A DNA stretch of 64,000 nucleotides, from positions 111,185 to 175,184 of IMG/VR virus record IMGVR_UViG_3300042935_001174. One strand, 5' to 3'. Origin of the DNA: a virus. The notes below the pieces were generated by a model that ran no database searches, was not told the origin of the DNA, and saw only the letters and a program-made list of their open reading frames with translations. Shown here in pieces: positions 25,425 to 36,581 of this stretch; the stretch's first letter is position 1; each line of letters opens with the position of its first letter. The position numbers and the translations under genes are program-made.

Positions 25425-25966
25425 ACATTATTTGTTACACAGGAGGAACTTGCGGTCATGTGTTAGCGGCCATAATAGATTCCACCAACTGCAAATTATC
25501 AAAAACAGCAGTTAGGATGCCTGCAGAAAGATGTCGTCTAAATAAACCTCACACCTTTTTAAATGATTTAGAAAAAACTCAGTATGTACAAAACATTAGT
25601 TTAGTGTATAATAGCTTACCCAGTCATGATTTAACCTATCATGTTAGTGCTGGTCAAGATTTTATTACTGTTACTGTAAATAAATTTGACACAGCATTGT
25701 GGGCCGCAGAAAGATTTAAACAGTTGCACAGACCAAATGTGTGGGAAGAGATGCAACAGTTTTGCGGTGCAAATGACGTTGCAGGATATGCAAAAACATT
25801 AATAGACTACTCTAATATGGTAAAGACACATACAAAAAAGATTGTTACACTTGAACGCATACTATCGGGGTATGCCGTTGAGGATCTTGCTAACTATGTA
25901 GAATCACCTGAACTGGATAATAACTTTTACCAAGAATGGCTGAAACTACAAAACTATGCAGGCTAA
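25421..25966 (+). CDS. Small protein with N-terminal P-loop-like motif
   Basis: I chose the GTG at 25421 (GTGA overlap) over in-frame codons further upstream. The product is 181 residues. The N-terminus, VNIICYTGGTCGHVLAAIID, is a strand, a Gly-rich loop and a helix, as in sulfotransferase or kinase-like folds, without a classical Lys-Ser/Thr. It resembles the starts of the genes at 8158 and 44651. The C-terminal half is helical. It overlaps uvsW by 11 bases. Function unknown. Confidence 0.55.
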   Translation: MNIICYTGGTCGHVLAAIIDSTNCKLSKTAVRMPAERCRLNKPHTFLNDLEKTQYVQNISLVYNSLPSHDLTYHVSAGQDFITVTVNKFDTALWAAERFKQLHRPNVWEEMQQFCGANDVAGYAKTLIDYSNMVKTHTKKIVTLERILSGYAVEDLANYVESPELDNNFYQEWLKLQNYAG

Positions 25967-27422
25967 ATTAATAATCAGAGACGAAGTAAATTTAAAGATT
26001 GAAGGACTTGATTTAACTGCTAGGCGTGCCTTAGTAAATAAATTCAAGTTTGATGTTCCTTATGCACGATATCTACCAGCGGTAAGACTGGGCAGATGGG
26101 ATGGTAAGGTCAGCTTCTTCCAACTAGGTGGCAGTACCTATGTAAATCTACTGCCTGAGATCATTCCCATCCTAGAAGACTACAACTACGACATTGACGT
26201 AGAGGATTTGCGCGAATATCGTACCACCTTTGATTTTACGCTAGTCAAGGAAGATACCTTTGCTGAAACAAATTGGCCCAAGAATCATCCGATGGAAGGC
26301 CAACCAATTATGTTGCGTGACTATCAGGTAGAGATAGTCAACAACTTTTTACAAAACCCACAATGCATACAAGAAGTGGCCACAGGCGCAGGCAAGACAA
26401 TTATGACTGCGGCTATGAGTTACAGCATACAACAATACGGACGTAGTATTATCATTGTTCCCAACAAAGACCTAGTGAGACAAACAGAAAAAGATTACAT
26501 TAATCTTGGACTTGACGTTGGAGTATATTTTGGAGACCGAAAAGAGTATAACAAGACACACACAATCTGTACCTGGCAGAGTCTAAACAACATGATGAAG
26601 AACACCAAGTCCGGCGAAGCAGAAGTTAGCATTGGGGATTTCATTGAGGGTGTGGTGTGCGTTATTGTAGATGAAGTACACATGGCCAAAGCAGATGCAC
26701 TAAAAACGTTGTTGACCAGTGTTATGTCTGAAGTGCCAATTCGGTGGGGATTAACCGGTACAGTTCCCAAGGAACGATTTGAATTTGAAGCATTGCATGT
26801 TAGCCTTGGACCAGTTATTAGTAAGTTGGCCGCCAGTGAATTGCAAGACAGGGGTGTGCTGGCACAATGTCATGTGAACATTGTACAGCTAGTTGATCAT
26901 GTTGAATACAGCAATTACCAAAGTGAGTTAAAATACCTACTAGAAGAATCAGGCAGGCTAGATACAATTGCCAGCTTAGTTAAACAGGTCAACGAGACTG
27001 GTAACACATTGGTTCTGGTTGACCGTATCAGTGCAGGACAATCACTGGCCGATCGTCTTGGGGACAAAGCAGTATTTGTTTCGGGCGCAACCAAAGGTAC
27101 AAAAAGGCAAGAACACTATGATGAAATTGCAGAATCAACAGGCAAAATTATTGTTGCCACTTACGGGGTGGCGGCGGTTGGTATTAATATACCACGAATC
27201 TTTAACTTGGTGCTGATTGAGCCCGGAAAAAGTTTTGTAAGGGTTATCCAATCAATTGGTAGGGGCATTAGAAAAGCAGAAGATAAAGACCATGTTCAAA
27301 TTTGGGACATAACCAGTACCTGCAAATTTGCAAAGCGGCACATGACCAAACGAAAACAGTTTTACAAAGAAGCCAACTACCCATTCTCTGCTGAAAAATT
27401 AGAATGGATGACCATCAAGTAA
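25956..27422 (+). CDS. uvsW: UvsW-like DNA/RNA helicase
   Basis: A 488-residue superfamily 2 helicase. The N-terminal domain has RYLPAVRLGRWDGKVSFF, as in UvsW. Motif I is ATGAGKT near residue 141, motif II is VDEVHMAKA near 238, motif III is GLTGT near 268, and motif VI is QSIGRGIRK. UvsW processes branched DNA and R-loops, moving T4 from origin-dependent to recombination-dependent replication. Its place among replication genes fits. Confidence 0.93.
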   Translation: MQAKLIIRDEVNLKIEGLDLTARRALVNKFKFDVPYARYLPAVRLGRWDGKVSFFQLGGSTYVNLLPEIIPILEDYNYDIDVEDLREYRTTFDFTLVKEDTFAETNWPKNHPMEGQPIMLRDYQVEIVNNFLQNPQCIQEVATGAGKTIMTAAMSYSIQQYGRSIIIVPNKDLVRQTEKDYINLGLDVGVYFGDRKEYNKTHTICTWQSLNNMMKNTKSGEAEVSIGDFIEGVVCVIVDEVHMAKADALKTLLTSVMSEVPIRWGLTGTVPKERFEFEALHVSLGPVISKLAASELQDRGVLAQCHVNIVQLVDHVEYSNYQSELKYLLEESGRLDTIASLVKQVNETGNTLVLVDRISAGQSLADRLGDKAVFVSGATKGTKRQEHYDEIAESTGKIIVATYGVAAVGINIPRIFNLVLIEPGKSFVRVIQSIGRGIRKAEDKDHVQIWDITSTCKFAKRHMTKRKQFYKEANYPFSAEKLEWMTIK

Positions 27423-28369: not shown

Positions 28370-28802
28370 ACTAAACATCAATAATGAAATGCGCCAGCTT
28401 GATACCAAGAATCGTAATTTCTATGATAGTTTAACTCCGGAAGAATTAAAAAAGTTCAGCAACTATCTTATGATACGTTGGGGTAGTAGTGTTGAGGATA
28501 GCAGTGAGATACAAGCATACTATGTGCGTAGTTGTAATCATTACTTAAACAAACATTTTTTTGCTATAAACAAACATCCCAAACTTCAGTGGTTGTGTGC
28601 CACTGCTATTAGTCCTGACCTAGGAACACCACGACATCCTTGGATTGCTCCAAAGAAAAAAGAAGCAGGTGCTGGAAGTATTAAGAAGCAGTTGGCAGAA
28701 TTATATCCAACCAAAAAAATGGACGAGATAGAATTGCTTAGTAAGTTAATTACTAAAAAAGAACTAGATGAATACGTTAAAGATCACGGTCAGGAAAAAT
28801 GA
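28359..28802 (+). CDS. Hypothetical protein in replication operon
   Basis: I chose the ATG at 28359 over an upstream in-frame TTG at 28353. The product is 147 residues, mostly helical, with basic stretches (WIAPKKKEAGAGSIKKQL) and a C-terminal LITKKELDEYVKDHG. The size and helical layout loosely recall a clamp-loader small subunit (gp62), but I see no diagnostic motif and leave it unnamed. A four-base overlap with the zinc-finger gene indicates a shared operon. Confidence 0.6.
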   Translation: MSDKLNINNEMRQLDTKNRNFYDSLTPEELKKFSNYLMIRWGSSVEDSSEIQAYYVRSCNHYLNKHFFAINKHPKLQWLCATAISPDLGTPRHPWIAPKKKEAGAGSIKKQLAELYPTKKMDEIELLSKLITKKELDEYVKDHGQEK

Positions 28803-29473
28803 CATACCAATGCCAGTATTGTAAAAAAGACTTTTCTAGAGAAAGTAGTTTGGCAGTACACGTCTGTGAACAAAAGAAACGTAGACAAGATCAGAATGAA
28901 CGTGGAGTCCAACTGGGATTTCAAGCATATTTAAAATTCTACGAAGTCACACAAGGGTCAGCTAAATTAAAAACATTTGATGACTTTGCTGATAGTTCGT
29001 ATTATCGAGCATTTGCTAAGTTTGGCAGATACTGTGTAGATATTCGAGCAATCAATCCTGCAAGGTTCACCGAATGGGTGGTTAAACAAAATAAAAAACT
29101 TGATTATTGGTGCAAGGATACTATCTACACAGAATACCTGTTATGGTATCTTAAAATTGAGTCTGTTAATGATGCATTGGCCAGGTCTATTGAACATAGT
29201 ATTGACTGGGAAGAGAAGAATGGTCATGCATCAAAAGATTATCTAAGATACGGTAACACTAATATAATTTGTCATGCAATTACTACTGGCAAGATCAGTC
29301 CCTGGGTAATTTACAACTGTGACAGTGGCCGGGAGTTCTTAAACGGACTTGATGAAAAACAAATTGCAATGATATGGTCATACATTGACGCAGATGTATG
29401 GCAACAAAAATTTAAAGATTATATGGCAGATCAAGAATACGCCAAGGACATTTTATCAAAGGCAGGATGGTAA
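28799..29473 (+). CDS. Zinc-finger protein upstream of the DnaE-like gene
   Basis: A 224-residue protein. The N-terminus is a C2HC-type finger: Cys5, Cys8, His21 and Cys23 in CQYCKKDFSRESSLAVHVC. The remaining 200 residues form a helical domain with conserved-looking aromatic segments (FAKFGRYCVDI, KLDYWCKDTIYTEYLLWYL, KISPWVIYN). As I recall it, this domain is kept in T4-like cyanophages in the same order before the DnaE-like gene. The stop overlaps the next start (TAATG), suggesting translational coupling and a physical partnership. Confidence 0.7.
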   Translation: MTYQCQYCKKDFSRESSLAVHVCEQKKRRQDQNERGVQLGFQAYLKFYEVTQGSAKLKTFDDFADSSYYRAFAKFGRYCVDIRAINPARFTEWVVKQNKKLDYWCKDTIYTEYLLWYLKIESVNDALARSIEHSIDWEEKNGHASKDYLRYGNTNIICHAITTGKISPWVIYNCDSGREFLNGLDEKQIAMIWSYIDADVWQQKFKDYMADQEYAKDILSKAGW

Positions 29474-30072
29474 TGAGCGCAGATATCGACATTGACTTTG
29501 CTGACAGAGAAACAGTATTAAAATTAGTAAAGCACATTCCTGCACGACAATCAGTTAATGAACAAGTGCGTCGACACAACAGTGGTGTTTACGTTACTGA
29601 TATTCCATTCGATCCAGTGAATCAGTGTGCTGCCATAGACTATGAAGAAGCCGAACAACGTGGTTACTTTAAGATAGACTTTTTAAACATGAGTGTTTAT
29701 CAGTTGGTTAAAAGTCCTGAACATTATGATCAAATGATCAAAACTGCACCTCCATGGACAAGACTATGGACAGATAACGCATGGGCTTCTCGGTTGGTAC
29801 ACGTCGGAAACTATACAGAATTGTTAAAGTCGATGCAACCAGATTCAATAGCTAGGATGGCTGCGTTTATCAGTATTATTAGGCCAGGAAAAGCACACTT
29901 ACAAAATAAAGATTGGAACACAGTCTTTGCTGGTGTGTGGGACGGAGATGATAGTCGCGGGTACACGTTTAAAAAATCACATGCAATTAGCTATGCTGTG
30001 TTAGTTGCCCTACACATGAATTTGCTACACGAAGCAGATCAACTTGAAAAATTAATCAATCTTTCTGACTAG
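29473..30072 (+). CDS. Miniature DNA polymerase III alpha (DnaE)-like palm protein
   Basis: I chose the ATG at 29473 (TAATG overlap) over the ATG at 29467. The product is 199 residues. It follows the order of the DnaE catalytic core: DIDIDFADR (4-12) matches the segment holding catalytic Asp401/Asp403 of E. coli DnaE. RHNSGVYVTDIP (34-45) matches HAAGVVI. GYFKIDFLN (64-72) matches the segment with Asp555. MQPDSIARMAAFISIIRPGK (121-140) matches the KP...ALFRPGP motif, and FKKSHAISYAVLV (166-178) matches FNKSHSAAYA. All three candidate catalytic Asp (6, 8, 69) are kept. PHP, beta-binding, OB and HhH domains are missing. Activity is unproved. Confidence 0.7.
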   Translation: MSADIDIDFADRETVLKLVKHIPARQSVNEQVRRHNSGVYVTDIPFDPVNQCAAIDYEEAEQRGYFKIDFLNMSVYQLVKSPEHYDQMIKTAPPWTRLWTDNAWASRLVHVGNYTELLKSMQPDSIARMAAFISIIRPGKAHLQNKDWNTVFAGVWDGDDSRGYTFKKSHAISYAVLVALHMNLLHEADQLEKLINLSD

Positions 30073-30429
30073 TGTAATTGATTTACGTTTACTTTTTCTG
30101 CGAGTGATATCACTTAAACTGCAAACAGGTCCGTGTAATATTTCAAGGTCTTTGTTGGCAAAAGTTCTTAAATATGGCTTAAATGGAGTCCACTCTGCTT
30201 TTAAGTATATGTTAATAGGTATACTGTGGTTACTTTCCCACCACCAATCATTGGCCAACTCAATAAACAGCTTTTTTAGTTCAGGGTCAGTAACATCACC
30301 AAAGTCGTAGATTGTTGTAATCGCGTCATCTCGATTTTGTATAATTCCCACGTATTCCGTCCCTGCATACAAGCACAGAGTTATAAACGGATACTTTTCA
30401 GTCAATTTTGTAAAGATATTATCACCCAT
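30052..30429 (-). CDS. Conserved phage hypothetical protein
   Basis: I chose the ATG at 30429 over 30450, which would run through the divergent promoter. The product is 125 residues. The segments YPFITLCLYAGTEYVGIIQ, NDWWWESNHSIPINIYLK and RTFANKDLEILHGPVCSL, plus the basic end ITRRKSKRKSITLVRKID, look strongly constrained. I recall relatives in aquatic T4-like phages. Function unknown. It is a lone minus-strand gene whose 3' end overlaps the DnaE-like gene by 21 bases. Confidence 0.65.
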   Translation of the reverse strand: MGDNIFTKLTEKYPFITLCLYAGTEYVGIIQNRDDAITTIYDFGDVTDPELKKLFIELANDWWWESNHSIPINIYLKAEWTPFKPYLRTFANKDLEILHGPVCSLSDITRRKSKRKSITLVRKID

Positions 30430-30434
30430 AAATA
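30428..30434 (+). promoter_or_regulatory. Candidate late promoter
   Basis: ATAAATA (preceded by C) lies 17 bases before the virion-type gene at 30451 and overlaps the divergent gene's start codon. It resembles the T4 late element. Confidence 0.45.
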
Positions 30435-30450
30435 TTAGTTGGAGATCCAA

Positions 30451-31242: not shown

Positions 31243-31976
31243 AATTTAAAAAAATTGTTGGATTTGGGGACAGTTGGGTCTGGGGCGACGAGTTAATTGA
31301 TCCAGAGTTGTTAAAACACAATTCTGATGCGCATCCAAGTCTAGTAGAGAATACGTCTTATCGTGAACGAAAATGCTTCCTGGGATTACTTGGTAGACAT
31401 TATCAATTGCCCACAAAAAACTTTGGCATACCCGGCGGCAGTTTACAAAGCACCATGTGGACTTTTTTGTGGTGGTTACGCAACGAACCCAGTCCCGAAG
31501 AATGTATTGTTCTAGTAGGATTAACCGAAGGTAGTCGAATGAGTTTTTATAACCCTAGTCATGAAACTTACCCTAATGCTCCTACGTGGGATAGATTTGT
31601 TCACAGTTCGTGGGTACATGCTGGAGTCCAAGACGGTGCTGTGACTCGCGAATGGACCGATATGATTAAACGATACATGGTACTGAGTGAAAGTGATCCA
31701 TTGTCAATGCTAAACTACGAACAAGCGTTGTACTTTTTTGATGGTGTGGCAGCCAGAAGAAATCTACCAATGTTGATCTGGGACATAAGCCCGCCACAAG
31801 AAGAAATTACAGTTCCTTCTAAGATATTGCCAGGATTTAATTTTGTACATTGGCTACGACGACATCCAAACGAAATGGAATTAACGTTTCCGGGCGGCCA
31901 CCCTAATGAAAACGGACACATAATACTGCGAGATATGTTGCAACAAGAGATAGATTGTGTTATAATGTCTAAGTGA
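31239..31976 (+). CDS. SGNH/GDSL-type hydrolase
   Basis: A 245-residue protein. FGDSWVWGDEL has the nucleophile in GDS (residues 10-12). KNFGIPGGSLQST is block II, ECIVLVGLTEG is the block III region, and FPGGHPNENGH holds the catalytic His with the usual Pro-Asn context; the Asp usual three residues before that His is not obvious. Such proteins remove acyl groups from sugars or lipids. No signal peptide is present. Coupling to a tail-type gene suggests either a virion-borne deacetylase or a glycan-modifying enzyme. Confidence 0.7.
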   Translation: MKFKKIVGFGDSWVWGDELIDPELLKHNSDAHPSLVENTSYRERKCFLGLLGRHYQLPTKNFGIPGGSLQSTMWTFLWWLRNEPSPEECIVLVGLTEGSRMSFYNPSHETYPNAPTWDRFVHSSWVHAGVQDGAVTREWTDMIKRYMVLSESDPLSMLNYEQALYFFDGVAARRNLPMLIWDISPPQEEITVPSKILPGFNFVHWLRRHPNEMELTFPGGHPNENGHIILRDMLQQEIDCVIMSK

Positions 31977-32962
31977 TAGACATAATCAATTACCTGCCTG
32001 CTAAAAGAAAAACTAGTCCACAGGGCTGGACTAGTTTTAATGCTGTGTGTTGCACCCATAATGGTAACTCACAAGACAAACGTGGCCGAGGCGGCATCAA
32101 AGTCACCGACCAAGGTTGGAGTTACCACTGCTTCAATTGCGGCTACACAGCTAGCTTTGTACTAGGGCGTACTTTAAGTTTTAAAGCCAAACGATTGCTA
32201 GGTTGGATGGGTGTGCCGGACAACGAGATTGAAATGCTCAATCTTGAAAGTCTAAGACATCGCAACATACACGGAATTTTAGAAGATAGACAACGAGTAT
32301 CCAACACACTGAGCGCAATTGAGTTTGGTGAGTCCGATGACTTTCCGCCTTACGCAGAAGTAGTTACTCCAGAATTTCCAACATACTGGGACTACATCCG
32401 CCATCGCGGCGTGCCAGAAGATTTTCCTGTAATGACTTCTATCAAGACTGATGGAGTTCATTGGACCAGACCGTATGTGTTGATACCGTTTACATACGAC
32501 AACAAAGTAATAGGTTGGTGTGCTAGATTCTTAGATAACAAGATTCCCAAGTATATCAATCATAGCCAACCGGGCTATGTATTTGGCACAGACCTACAAC
32601 ATAATGACTGGCAGTATGTGATTGTTACAGAAGGTATATTTGATGCACTAAGCATTAGCGGCCTTGCACTAATGCACAACACCATCAGCGACAGTCAAGC
32701 TAGACTGATACGTAGCTTGGGCAAGGAAGTAGTTGTGGTTCCGGACCAAGACACAGCAGGTGTAGAACTGATTGACCGTGCTGTAGAATTAGGATATAGT
32801 GTTAGTATACCTACATGGCCAGACGACTGTAAAGACGTTAATGATGCAGTGATAAAGTTGGGCAAGTTAGGAGCCTTGCTAACTATTATGCAAGCAAAAG
32901 AGACCAGTAAGATAAAAATTGAAATAAGGAAAAAGCAACTTGTTAAAAGATTACGGACTTGA
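31973..32962 (+). CDS. 61: DNA primase (gp61-like)
   Basis: A 329-residue protein starting at a GTG that overlaps the previous stop (GTGA). The zinc-binding region lies in residues 20-60 (CCTHNGN, then YHCFNCGYTASF). The Toprim domain has VTEGIFDALSI and VVVPDQDTAGVELI with the acidic metal residues. It makes RNA primers for lagging-strand synthesis with the helicase encoded next, and the two genes overlap by 23 bases. Confidence 0.92.
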   Translation: MIDIINYLPAKRKTSPQGWTSFNAVCCTHNGNSQDKRGRGGIKVTDQGWSYHCFNCGYTASFVLGRTLSFKAKRLLGWMGVPDNEIEMLNLESLRHRNIHGILEDRQRVSNTLSAIEFGESDDFPPYAEVVTPEFPTYWDYIRHRGVPEDFPVMTSIKTDGVHWTRPYVLIPFTYDNKVIGWCARFLDNKIPKYINHSQPGYVFGTDLQHNDWQYVIVTEGIFDALSISGLALMHNTISDSQARLIRSLGKEVVVVPDQDTAGVELIDRAVELGYSVSIPTWPDDCKDVNDAVIKLGKLGALLTIMQAKETSKIKIEIRKKQLVKRLRT

Positions 32963-34382
32963 TGTCCAACGATTATTCCTAGAGATGATGTTAGAAGACG
33001 CATCGAGTTATGTGCGTGTTCAAAATATTTATAACCCAGCAAACTTTGACAAGAGTTTGAGACCTGCGGCTGAGTTCATTAAAGAACACTCAGACAAGCA
33101 CAAGACCATGCCAGACAGGCTGCAGATTTCAGCCACCACAGGCGTTAAACTTGCACCAGTGCCGGACTTGAACGAAGGTCATTACGATTGGTTCATGGGC
33201 GAGTTTGAATTGTTTACTAAACGTCAGGAACTTGAACGTGCTATTCTTAAATCAGCAGACTTGTTAGAAAAAGGCGAGTTTGAACCAGTTGAGAAACTGA
33301 TCAAAGATGCTGTGCAGATTAGTTTAACCAAAGACATGGGCACAGACTACTTTGCTGATCCTGCGGCTCGCATCAACAAATACTTTAATTCAGGTGGACA
33401 AGTGTCAACAGGATGGCCACAACTGGACAAGTTGTTGTATGGTGGATTCAGTCGCGGTGAACTAAACATCTTTGCAGGTGGATCAGGATCTGGCAAATCA
33501 CTTGTGATGATGAACATTGCATTAAACTGGTTGCAACAAGGTCTCAGTGGAGTATACATTACACTAGAACTTTCGGAAGAGCTTACTAGTTTAAGAACAG
33601 ATGCTATGTTAACCAGCATGAGTACCAAAGACATCCGCAAAGACATTGACACTACTACAATGAAGGTTCGCCTGGTCAGTAAAAAATCTGGTCAATATCG
33701 AGTCAAGGCATTGCCGGCACAGAGCAACATTAATGATATCCGCAGTTATGTCAAAGAAGTGCAGATACAAACAGGTATCAAAATTGACTTTATGATGATT
33801 GACTATCTGGACTTGTTGATGCCTGTTAGTGCAAAGGTCAGTCCAAACGATTTGTTTGTAAAAGACAAGTATGTGAGTGAAGAACTACGAAACTTGGCCA
33901 AAGAGCTAGGTATGTTAATGGTAACAGCGTCACAGTTGAATCGTAGTGCTGTGGAAGAAATTGAGTTTGATCACTCGCACATTTCAGGTGGTATTTCCAA
34001 GATTAATACTGCTGACAACGTGTTTGGTATCTTTACGTCACGTGCTATGAAAGAGCGTGGCAAGTATCAGATCCAGTGTATGAAAAGTCGTAGTTCTACA
34101 GGCGTAGGACAAAAGATTGATTTGGAATACAACATTGAAACCATGCGTATTACTGACCCAGGAGTGTCTGACAACGATAATTTCCGTGGCGGTGCAAAAC
34201 CTAGTATCATGGACTCATTCAAAACAAAAAGTACAGTAACTGACAATACGGCTGAAACCACATCATCAACTAAATGGGAAAGGCCTACAGGAACACCAGC
34301 ATGGGAACAACCACCTAAGGTATCAGCTGATGTGCAAAGTGCCAAATTAAAACAACTGTTGGGACAAATTAAACAGTCATGA
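32940..34382 (+). CDS. 41: Replicative DNA helicase (gp41/DnaB-like)
   Basis: A 480-residue protein. The start is a TTG at 32940 with an AAGGAAA ribosome site about ten bases upstream, inside the primase gene. DYGLDVQRLFLEMML at the N-terminus matches T4-like gp41. Walker A is FAGGSGSGKSLVM near residues 178-190, Walker B is DFMMIDYLDLL near 280-290, and VTASQLNRSAV is the H3-type motif. The C-terminal 60 residues are a Thr/Pro-rich linker ending in a basic helix, possibly for primase contact. Confidence 0.93.
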   Translation: MLKDYGLDVQRLFLEMMLEDASSYVRVQNIYNPANFDKSLRPAAEFIKEHSDKHKTMPDRLQISATTGVKLAPVPDLNEGHYDWFMGEFELFTKRQELERAILKSADLLEKGEFEPVEKLIKDAVQISLTKDMGTDYFADPAARINKYFNSGGQVSTGWPQLDKLLYGGFSRGELNIFAGGSGSGKSLVMMNIALNWLQQGLSGVYITLELSEELTSLRTDAMLTSMSTKDIRKDIDTTTMKVRLVSKKSGQYRVKALPAQSNINDIRSYVKEVQIQTGIKIDFMMIDYLDLLMPVSAKVSPNDLFVKDKYVSEELRNLAKELGMLMVTASQLNRSAVEEIEFDHSHISGGISKINTADNVFGIFTSRAMKERGKYQIQCMKSRSSTGVGQKIDLEYNIETMRITDPGVSDNDNFRGGAKPSIMDSFKTKSTVTDNTAETTSSTKWERPTGTPAWEQPPKVSADVQSAKLKQLLGQIKQS

Positions 34383-35519: not shown

Positions 35520-36581
35520 TCAAAACAAATTAACAAGTTCTGGCAGATAGTCTTTGATTAAGATATTCTTTGAAGAATCTTGTAATTTGATATTTTCCAA
35601 CATTAAATTAAAATTTTGTTGGTCTTGGTCTGTGTGTACTGCCCCCACAAACATGTTATAGTCCATTGGTCTGAGCTTTTCTTTAAGCACTTGTTTGATG
35701 TCTGCGGACAAGGCTCTCGGTTGTAACCATTTTGGATTATAAATTGGATTTACAGAATATACTATATTATTTTGGTCAAACCATTTTTTTGTTTGGTTAT
35801 GGTACAGCACATTCAAGTTACTTAATGTGTAATTTGAACTAACATTTTTTGAAATTTCTTTAAAGAATTGAAGATTTTGGTTCAGCTGGTCCCATTTCAA
35901 TGGAAATCTGAGATACTCGAACACAGGTCCGACTCCGTCGATACTGAGAGAAAAATTAAGATTTTTAAATTTTGACAGTATTCTTTTTTGTTTATCTGAC
36001 AGTACAACACTTCCGTTTGTTATCATACTTACAAATAGTTGATCGTTACCTGTATCAATTAAATGTTCTAATAATTCGAAGTTTTTCTTTTCGTACAGCG
36101 GTTCACCACCTAGCAAACTTAGCATTTTTAATTCTTTAAAATCTACATCTTGTTTGATTTTTTCTATGTCAATGAATTTGTATTTTTTAATTGGTATAGT
36201 TGGGTCTGTCTGACGATCGAGTTGTGCCCAACTACTACTGGCTCCGGCGCCACAGCTTACACAGGTAGCATTACAGGTGTAACTGGTTGTTAATTTTAGT
36301 ATGCGGGTAGGAGTAATACCGTGTGTGGCATCTTGTATGATTTTTGTTAAGTCTTTATCCCAATAAAAATCTAAAGATTTGTTTTTAACCTGACGATCAC
36401 TTTTTAAACCTTGATCTTCCAATGACCAGCATTTTTGACAAGCAGATGATCTTTGACCAGATAATAAATCTTTTTTAATTTCTTCAAGATTGTGATTCTT
36501 GGGCAATAAACAACAGGGTGTTTTGTTATTGTTATAATCAATTTCTTTACTAAACCACGGTAATACGCAAAATGTATCCAT
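35520..36581 (-). CDS. Radical SAM protein, second of a convergent pair
   Basis: A 353-residue protein. CNATCVSC has Cys103, Cys107 and Cys110. LLGGEPLYE is the GGEP motif and FSLSIDGVGPVFEYLRFP the core strand. The N-terminus FCVLPWFS, Cys23-Cys24 and CQKC (48-51) with WSLEDQG matches the twitch radical SAM pattern more exactly than its partner. It is a paralog of the gene at 34379; their stops are four bases apart. Such proteins often modify peptides or sugars by radical chemistry. The substrate here is unknown. Confidence 0.85.
   Translation of the reverse strand: MDTFCVLPWFSKEIDYNNNKTPCCLLPKNHNLEEIKKDLLSGQRSSACQKCWSLEDQGLKSDRQVKNKSLDFYWDKDLTKIIQDATHGITPTRILKLTTSYTCNATCVSCGAGASSSWAQLDRQTDPTIPIKKYKFIDIEKIKQDVDFKELKMLSLLGGEPLYEKKNFELLEHLIDTGNDQLFVSMITNGSVVLSDKQKRILSKFKNLNFSLSIDGVGPVFEYLRFPLKWDQLNQNLQFFKEISKNVSSNYTLSNLNVLYHNQTKKWFDQNNIVYSVNPIYNPKWLQPRALSADIKQVLKEKLRPMDYNMFVGAVHTDQDQQNFNLMLENIKLQDSSKNILIKDYLPELVNLF

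Follow-up and report, generated by a model that had tools for sequence, protein, structure and literature searches.

Split forms of the alpha subunit of bacterial DNA polymerase III (Pol III) are already known as a prediction. For the 'group 2.2' jumbo bacteriophages, among them Atu_ph07, which also belongs to the present set, Iyer et al. (2021) described a split minimal Pol III alpha whose two proteins they expect to reconstitute the enzyme, perhaps for the synthesis of one strand or for repair, and the split form serves them as a model for the enzyme's ancestral state (PMC7824862). A truncated Pol III alpha of 172 amino acids had been noticed earlier, in a passage of the CBB genome paper (PMC5259590), and gp316 is listed in the corresponding part of the Atu_ph07 paper (PMC6102473). 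The PHROGs database labels both halves DNA polymerase. Our literature search, which did not reach most subscription papers or any preprint, found no bench test of the split design and, for later work on it, returned the 2021 paper alone.

The window analysed here is a stretch of 64,000 nucleotides, positions 111,185 to 175,184 of the IMG/VR virus record IMGVR_UViG_3300042935_001174, that is, the last 64 kb of this 175,184-base record (G000). One of its genes encodes a protein of 199 amino acids (Table 1), which a preliminary description, made from the sequence, had read as a miniature relative of DnaE. This gene is a further metagenomic member of the group 2.2-type split polymerase, with no difference in kind from the described cases, in which the other Pol III domains are likewise absent and a family-B polymerase is encoded alongside (PMC7824862). 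New beyond that paper are the metagenomic member itself, the exact split point, the co-occurrence counts, the conservation of the steric gate and a selection estimate. We consider it probable that the protein is the C-terminal half (C-half) of a split minimal C-family polymerase, which associates in trans with an N-terminal half (N-half) encoded by a distant gene and extends primers; more tentatively, the pair may act in repair beside the replicase.

With DnaE and PolC, the pair shares the palm strands bearing D401, D403 and D555 (E. coli DnaE numbering), the GS motif, here found in the partner, and the finger segments with H760. It differs in being made of two polypeptides, in lacking the PHP, OB, HhH and clamp-binding regions and in its much shortened thumb and fingers. 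In the bacteriophage DnaE families phrog_405 (1190 profile positions) and phrog_11165 (782), the polymerase is one chain, as against two proteins here, and both halves match these families in order. African swine fever virus (ASFV) Pol X, according to a passage of PMC11646218, is another viral polymerase that retains little more than the nucleotidyltransferase fold and its fingers and that functions in repair; it belongs to the X family and is one chain. The cyanobacterial DnaE proteins split by inteins, as treated in part of PMC3919608, are likewise encoded in pieces, but neither half here carries an intein-like extension, and splitting by an intein was rejected.

The C-half, which would be 201 residues long from the in-frame alternative start at 29467, 6 bases upstream of 29473, belongs to phrog_11778, 'DNA polymerase' (E-value (E) 3.8e-55), and also matches phrog_405 (E 7.4e-8). 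Taken as a single sequence, it gave an E of 0.073 with the Pfam Pol III finger domain, below the cut-off, weak values of 0.03-0.5 with the NCBIfam Pol III alpha models, and an unrelated chain only in a phmmer search of the PDB. A profile built from 76 relatives placed solved Pol III alpha subunits at the top of the PDB matches, with an E of 0.021 that alone is not significant, in four collinear pieces: profile positions 4-25, 54-73, 112-139 and 153-177 correspond, in that order, to E. coli 401-424, 540-559, 614-641 and 742-767.

An AlphaFold2 model of the C-half, for which 71 sequences from the window and from IMG/VR served as input, reached a mean predicted local distance difference test score (pLDDT) of 89.2. 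All 14 top-ranked chains of a Foldseek search were of the C family, the best at E 8.5e-4, the single value below 0.001. VIA-align likewise listed C-family structures as its first 15 entries (Z 8.8-5.6), with 184-197 residues aligned, nearly end to end, the reported ranges giving just where each alignment begins and ends; the next entry was unrelated (Z 3.0). Three of these structures (9qrn, 9qpc and 9qrl) bear no title beyond 'DNA polymerase' and were taken as PolC from their numbering. The profile, the phrog families and the model match together bear out the palm and fingers homology claimed in the preliminary description, including the structural comparison it had called for: homology to the C-family (DnaE/PolC) polymerase core, with metal-binding and finger segments in order, is confirmed.

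The chain contains the three catalytic aspartates of the C-family palm, and it begins at the DxD strand (E. coli D401), without the GS motif, which in a C-family palm precedes that strand. Judged by the Pfam scan and by spacing, its 199 residues hold no PHP, thumb, OB, HhH or clamp-binding domain and comprise only the C-terminal part of the palm and reduced fingers. The absence of the PHP, beta-binding, OB and HhH domains had been seen correctly from the start, but that of the GS part of the palm had been overlooked. Because this motif sits in a separate gene, the protein is not the self-sufficient, stripped-down nucleotidyltransferase that had first been suggested. The preliminary description had recognised neither the partner nor the earlier publication of the split form.

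The partner gene was searched with PF07733 in six long relatives and in G000. Each relative (6/6) gave one match, in a separate gene and over profile positions 16-98, in a protein of 169-181 residues; no match occurred in the 175,184-base record. In a Pfam scan, the N-half matched PF07733 at E 1.1e-7, above the cut-off. The phrog_405 profile recovered the N-half in 6/6 relatives and the C-half in 5/6 and in G000, missing that of PBECO4. Its one further match, in Phosso, was weak (27 positions, E 0.01), and no other convincing Pol III domain was found in the six relatives and G000, within the limited sensitivity of a profile that missed the PBECO4 C-half. An epsilon-type exonuclease (PF00929), considered as a third Pol III part, was present in 4/13 records and absent from G000 and from its near relative G001.

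These searches bear on the idea that the C-half mimics host Pol III alpha in order to bind or divert parts of the host replisome. Its homology to host DnaE would fit such a role. In alpha, the PHP domain and the C-terminal region make the contacts to epsilon, beta and tau. These parts are absent from both proteins, the phrog_405 search, within its limited sensitivity, gave no convincing further piece in the six relatives, and a decoy would need no intact active site, all of which makes mimicry very improbable.

The N-half is the complement of the C-half on solved polymerases. Its profile matches residues 323-393 of E. coli DnaE (E 0.0023). In the AlphaFold model of the G001 protein (pLDDT 80.9), residues ~73-174 align with 13 C-family entries (Z 12.2-7.6), ahead of a next row at Z 2.1; in Foldseek, C-family chains rank first, yet at an E of 0.025 or worse. 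On the same chains, the N-half ends and the C-half begins at 393|399 (4jom), 413|418 (5lew), 455|460 (3e0d) and 965|970 (3f2b), so that the two models cover adjoining parts of each solved polymerase and leave 4-5 residues between them. The boundaries being complementary, the C-half is therefore the second half of one palm. Most N-half members end in EFLR/K-stop, as in G001 (...WGVGRGSSVASYVLY...EFLR-stop), and the DxD strand opens the C-half; nothing intein-like is seen at either end.

As a side observation, the GS half matches near the C-terminal ends of phrog_13169 (463 positions) and phrog_7513 (461), as if other bacteriophage DnaE proteins stopped near the same split point. In phrog_11165 the GS half lies at positions 37-111, resembling a contiguous DnaE without a PHP domain.

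Alignment with E. coli DnaE gives D4=D401, D6=D403, D8=D405, K67=K553, D69=D555, R137=R639 and H170=H760. The preliminary description had placed the third aspartate correctly at residue 69, but the first two belong at residues 4 and 6; of the residues 6 and 8 given there, the latter matches D405. Passages of PMC8485763 name D401, D403 and D555 as the catalytic aspartates and H760 as a proposed steric gate, called invariant across all Pol III alpha proteins. All 84 relatives, including the diverged Slicko01, have D4, D6, D8, K67, D69, R137, P138, K167, H170 and Y174 in common; the retention of the three aspartates noted at the outset thus holds in 84/84 sequences without variation. A core set of 13 residues is invariant throughout (13/13, among 26 invariant of 199 positions), with a p value of 1e-13 that is descriptive, as the set was picked after the invariant columns were known; a fairer set is formed by the four residues of the PMC8485763 passages, D401, D403, D555 and H760, although these passages too were met after the alignment. 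On the other half, GxGRGS is kept in 119/119 matches, 91 of them distinct.

Both halves are under purifying selection. Over 418 pairs of C-halves, the median pairwise ratio of non-synonymous to synonymous substitution rates (dN/dS) was 0.11, and over 201 pairs of N-halves it was 0.21; dS came close to saturation, its medians being 1.6 and 1.7. Because dN/dS is 0.11 and the active-site residues are invariant, a decaying, non-catalytic relic, which had been offered as a second option, is disfavoured and was set aside.

Under a related explanation, the two halves together are what remains of a polymerase, retained because of its shape, and serve the phage replisome as a scaffold or DNA-binding component without catalysis. 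The reductions in the C-half would suit it: D8 and H35 are separated by 27 residues as against 106 in E. coli, a stretch in which we take the thumb of E. coli DnaE to lie, and the R137-H170 spacing of the fingers is 33 residues as against 121. The relatives also possess a full family-B polymerase already. A scaffold would need neither the metal-binding aspartates nor the GS motif nor the steric-gate histidine, however, and all of these are invariant; we regard this explanation as unlikely.

The two halves occur together. In the phage collection, with an N-half threshold of E 1e-9 or better, 60 records carry the N-half and 63 the C-half (CM1, RAS14 and Slickus01 being taken as members of the latter set), and all 60 are among the 63. 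A profile search found the N-half in Slicko01 (141 kb; E 5.3e-18), which becomes the 61st record with both. The remaining two, Slickus01, like-named and from the same host as Slicko01, and PP728206.1 (109 kb), were outside this profile search. No cyanophage name appears among the 63 records; the cyanophage relatives mentioned in the preliminary description thus find no support in this collection, and a cyanophage family was rejected. One member, Sharanji, is recorded on E. coli K-12 MG1655. Among 32 IMG/VR records selected for carrying one half, 19 have both, among them all 10 records of at least 290 kb, each of which also encodes a family-B polymerase. Along the record the halves lie 11-256 kb apart in 28 cases (19 IMG/VR and 9 named records), and none of the loci searched holds a joint open reading frame (ORF), observations that dispose of a split of one gene by gene calling or sequencing.

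A family-B polymerase was found in every relative long enough to judge: in 6/6 long relatives, in 25/33 records when fragments are counted and in 4/4 further phages. The preliminary description's mention of a family-B polymerase as the usual enzyme of T4-like phages thus agrees with the genomes of the relatives, where it accompanies the halves; none was found in the G000 fragment. Two variants of this enzyme may be mentioned here. It lies in two open frames in Paride, Atu_ph07, G015 and Slicko01, and a split PolB with an intein is described for the related phage MIJ3 in a passage of PMC6892783. In the single record G016, a family-B polymerase is matched at two separate places, by an 890 aa frame at 200 kb and by an 857 aa frame at 52 kb.

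Several observations weigh against the reading of the two proteins as halves of one polymerase. The sequence-profile matches to solved polymerases are weak for both halves, and N-half residues 1-72 lie outside the matches described above. No fused form was found: 191 loci of the C-half and 119 phage loci of the N-half, counts that contain redundant loci, yielded not one ORF with both. Among the 32 IMG/VR records, 13 have one half without the other. The C-half is absent from 11, of which 10 are shorter than 240 kb and the other, G002, carries an N-half in 262 kb; the N-half is absent from 2, both shorter than 100 kb. The distances within the C-half and N-half families are correlated over 22 genomes (r 0.887, with 0/2000 permutations as high), but this correlation, computed without an unrelated control pair, shows shared inheritance only and is no evidence of contact. 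Neither the thumb nor the clamp-binding region nor the other parts by which DnaE holds DNA were found.

Finally, no N-half is present in the 175 kb of G000 itself. Its near relative G001, whose C-half gene is 93% identical, carries both an N-half and a family-B polymerase. At its end, the window runs colinear with 91.5-94.4 kb of G001, and the G001 N-half lies at 29.2-29.7 kb. Truncation of the record is the simplest reason for the missing N-half, because the gene would map ~62 kb past the point where G000 ends, ~95 kb downstream of the C-half gene if the arrangement is that of G001.

Weighing these points, we find it most likely that the halves come together in trans as a small, functional polymerase; both their physical association and their catalysis are predicted. 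Following the logic of the nucleotidyltransferase fold, as set out in part of PMC11646218, the GxGRGS loop and helix of the N-half (~170-180 aa) would hold the triphosphate of the incoming nucleotide, and the C-half would hold the metals through its three aspartates. The shortened fingers of the C-half, with their steric-gate histidine, would select deoxynucleoside triphosphates (dNTPs). Neither protein alone would be complete, and their joining would complete one active site able to extend primer 3' ends. Such an enzyme, with no thumb, no OB or HhH domain and no clamp-binding region, would be poorly processive. Because of these missing parts and the poor processivity expected from them, gap filling or repair is favoured over bulk replication; that the pair carries out short stretches of synthesis, in repair or to fill gaps, while a family-B enzyme serves as replicase is put forward tentatively, at somewhat less than even chances.

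The same pair might instead transfer nucleotides otherwise than as a templated DNA polymerase, for instance by adding them to 3' ends without a template or by nucleotidylating a protein or RNA. The nucleotidyltransferase fold serves many such reactions, as the relevant part of PMC11646218 describes, and the DNA-holding parts are reduced. Features specific to C-family polymerases are nevertheless kept in the fingers, namely the RPG and K-x-x-H segments and the dNTP-selecting steric gate, and the neighbouring genes are replication genes (helicase, primase and DnaB-like helicase). Transfer of this kind is accordingly quite unlikely in our judgement.

The C-half gene sits among these replication genes, closely packed between two conserved neighbours. 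Upstream, the TAA stop of the phrog_11058 gene and the ATG at 29473 have one base in common (TAATG). The phrog_11058 protein has a C2H2-like start (Pfam E 0.0004, below the cut-off) and a weak match to a helicase loader (phrog_269, E 0.0046). The convergent phrog_11637 gene overlaps the 3' end of the C-half gene by 21 bases. Among relatives' loci with enough flank, phrog_11058 was found in 167/174 and phrog_11637 in 168/170; these are redundant counts, some contigs having been fetched repeatedly, and a neighbour was counted anywhere in the locus, whatever its exact place. Convergent genes are annotated at the place of phrog_11637 in Phosso, Paride, PBECO4, Atu_ph07, SCTP-2 and Slicko01; in Slicko01, profiles found neither phrog_11058 nor phrog_11637, though the convergent gene stands there.

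These two proteins, one with its zinc-finger-like end, may provide the DNA-holding function that the thumb and OB domain have in DnaE. A more demanding form of the split-polymerase reading would make the halves an obligate heterodimer, conditional on both genes, with one shared active site, among the smallest C-family polymerases and possibly aided in DNA holding by these neighbours; in this form we regard it as rather doubtful.

Table 1. Positions in the window of the C-half gene, its main residues and surrounding features
Feature	Position	Strand	Details
C-half gene (phrog_11778), part of a probable split minimal C-family polymerase	29473-30072	+	199 aa; homology, model, conserved residues
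D-x-D strand, codons 4-6 (D4 = D401, D6 = D403, metal ligands)	29482-29490	+	alignment; 84/84 invariant
D69 = E. coli D555, third metal ligand, codon 69	29677-29679	+	alignment; invariant
H170 = E. coli H760, proposed fingers steric gate, codon 170	29980-29982	+	alignment; invariant
Upstream neighbour phrog_11058, C2H2 zinc-finger-like N-terminus	28799-29473	+	candidate partner only
Convergent neighbour phrog_11637, small, no Pfam match	30052-30450	-	candidate partner only
DNA helicase, UvsW-like as judged from its place in annotated relatives	25956-27422	+	phrog_16, E 7.1e-74
DNA primase	31973-32962	+	phrog_47, E 7.8e-35
DnaB-like replicative helicase	32940-34382	+	phrog_19, E 3.1e-68
Pair of convergent ORFs rich in Cys, both containing a CxxxCxxC segment	34379-35515 and 35520-36581	+ and -	side observation

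The CxxxCxxC segments of the two Cys-rich ORFs are, we assume, reminiscent of radical S-adenosylmethionine (radical-SAM) enzymes. Relatives of the C-half are also encoded on eight contigs of metagenome-assembled genomes labelled bacteria or archaea (L300-L307), which are probably phage contigs binned with these genomes.

The split-polymerase family is large, with at least 600 IMG/VR stretches for each half. If the halves work together, they would constitute a C-family polymerase reduced to the palm and partial fingers, its catalytic site divided between two proteins. Such an enzyme would reveal how small a part of Pol III alpha suffices for synthesis, and it would bear on the suggestion that the ancestor of the bacterial replicases was similar to these minimal forms (PMC7824862).
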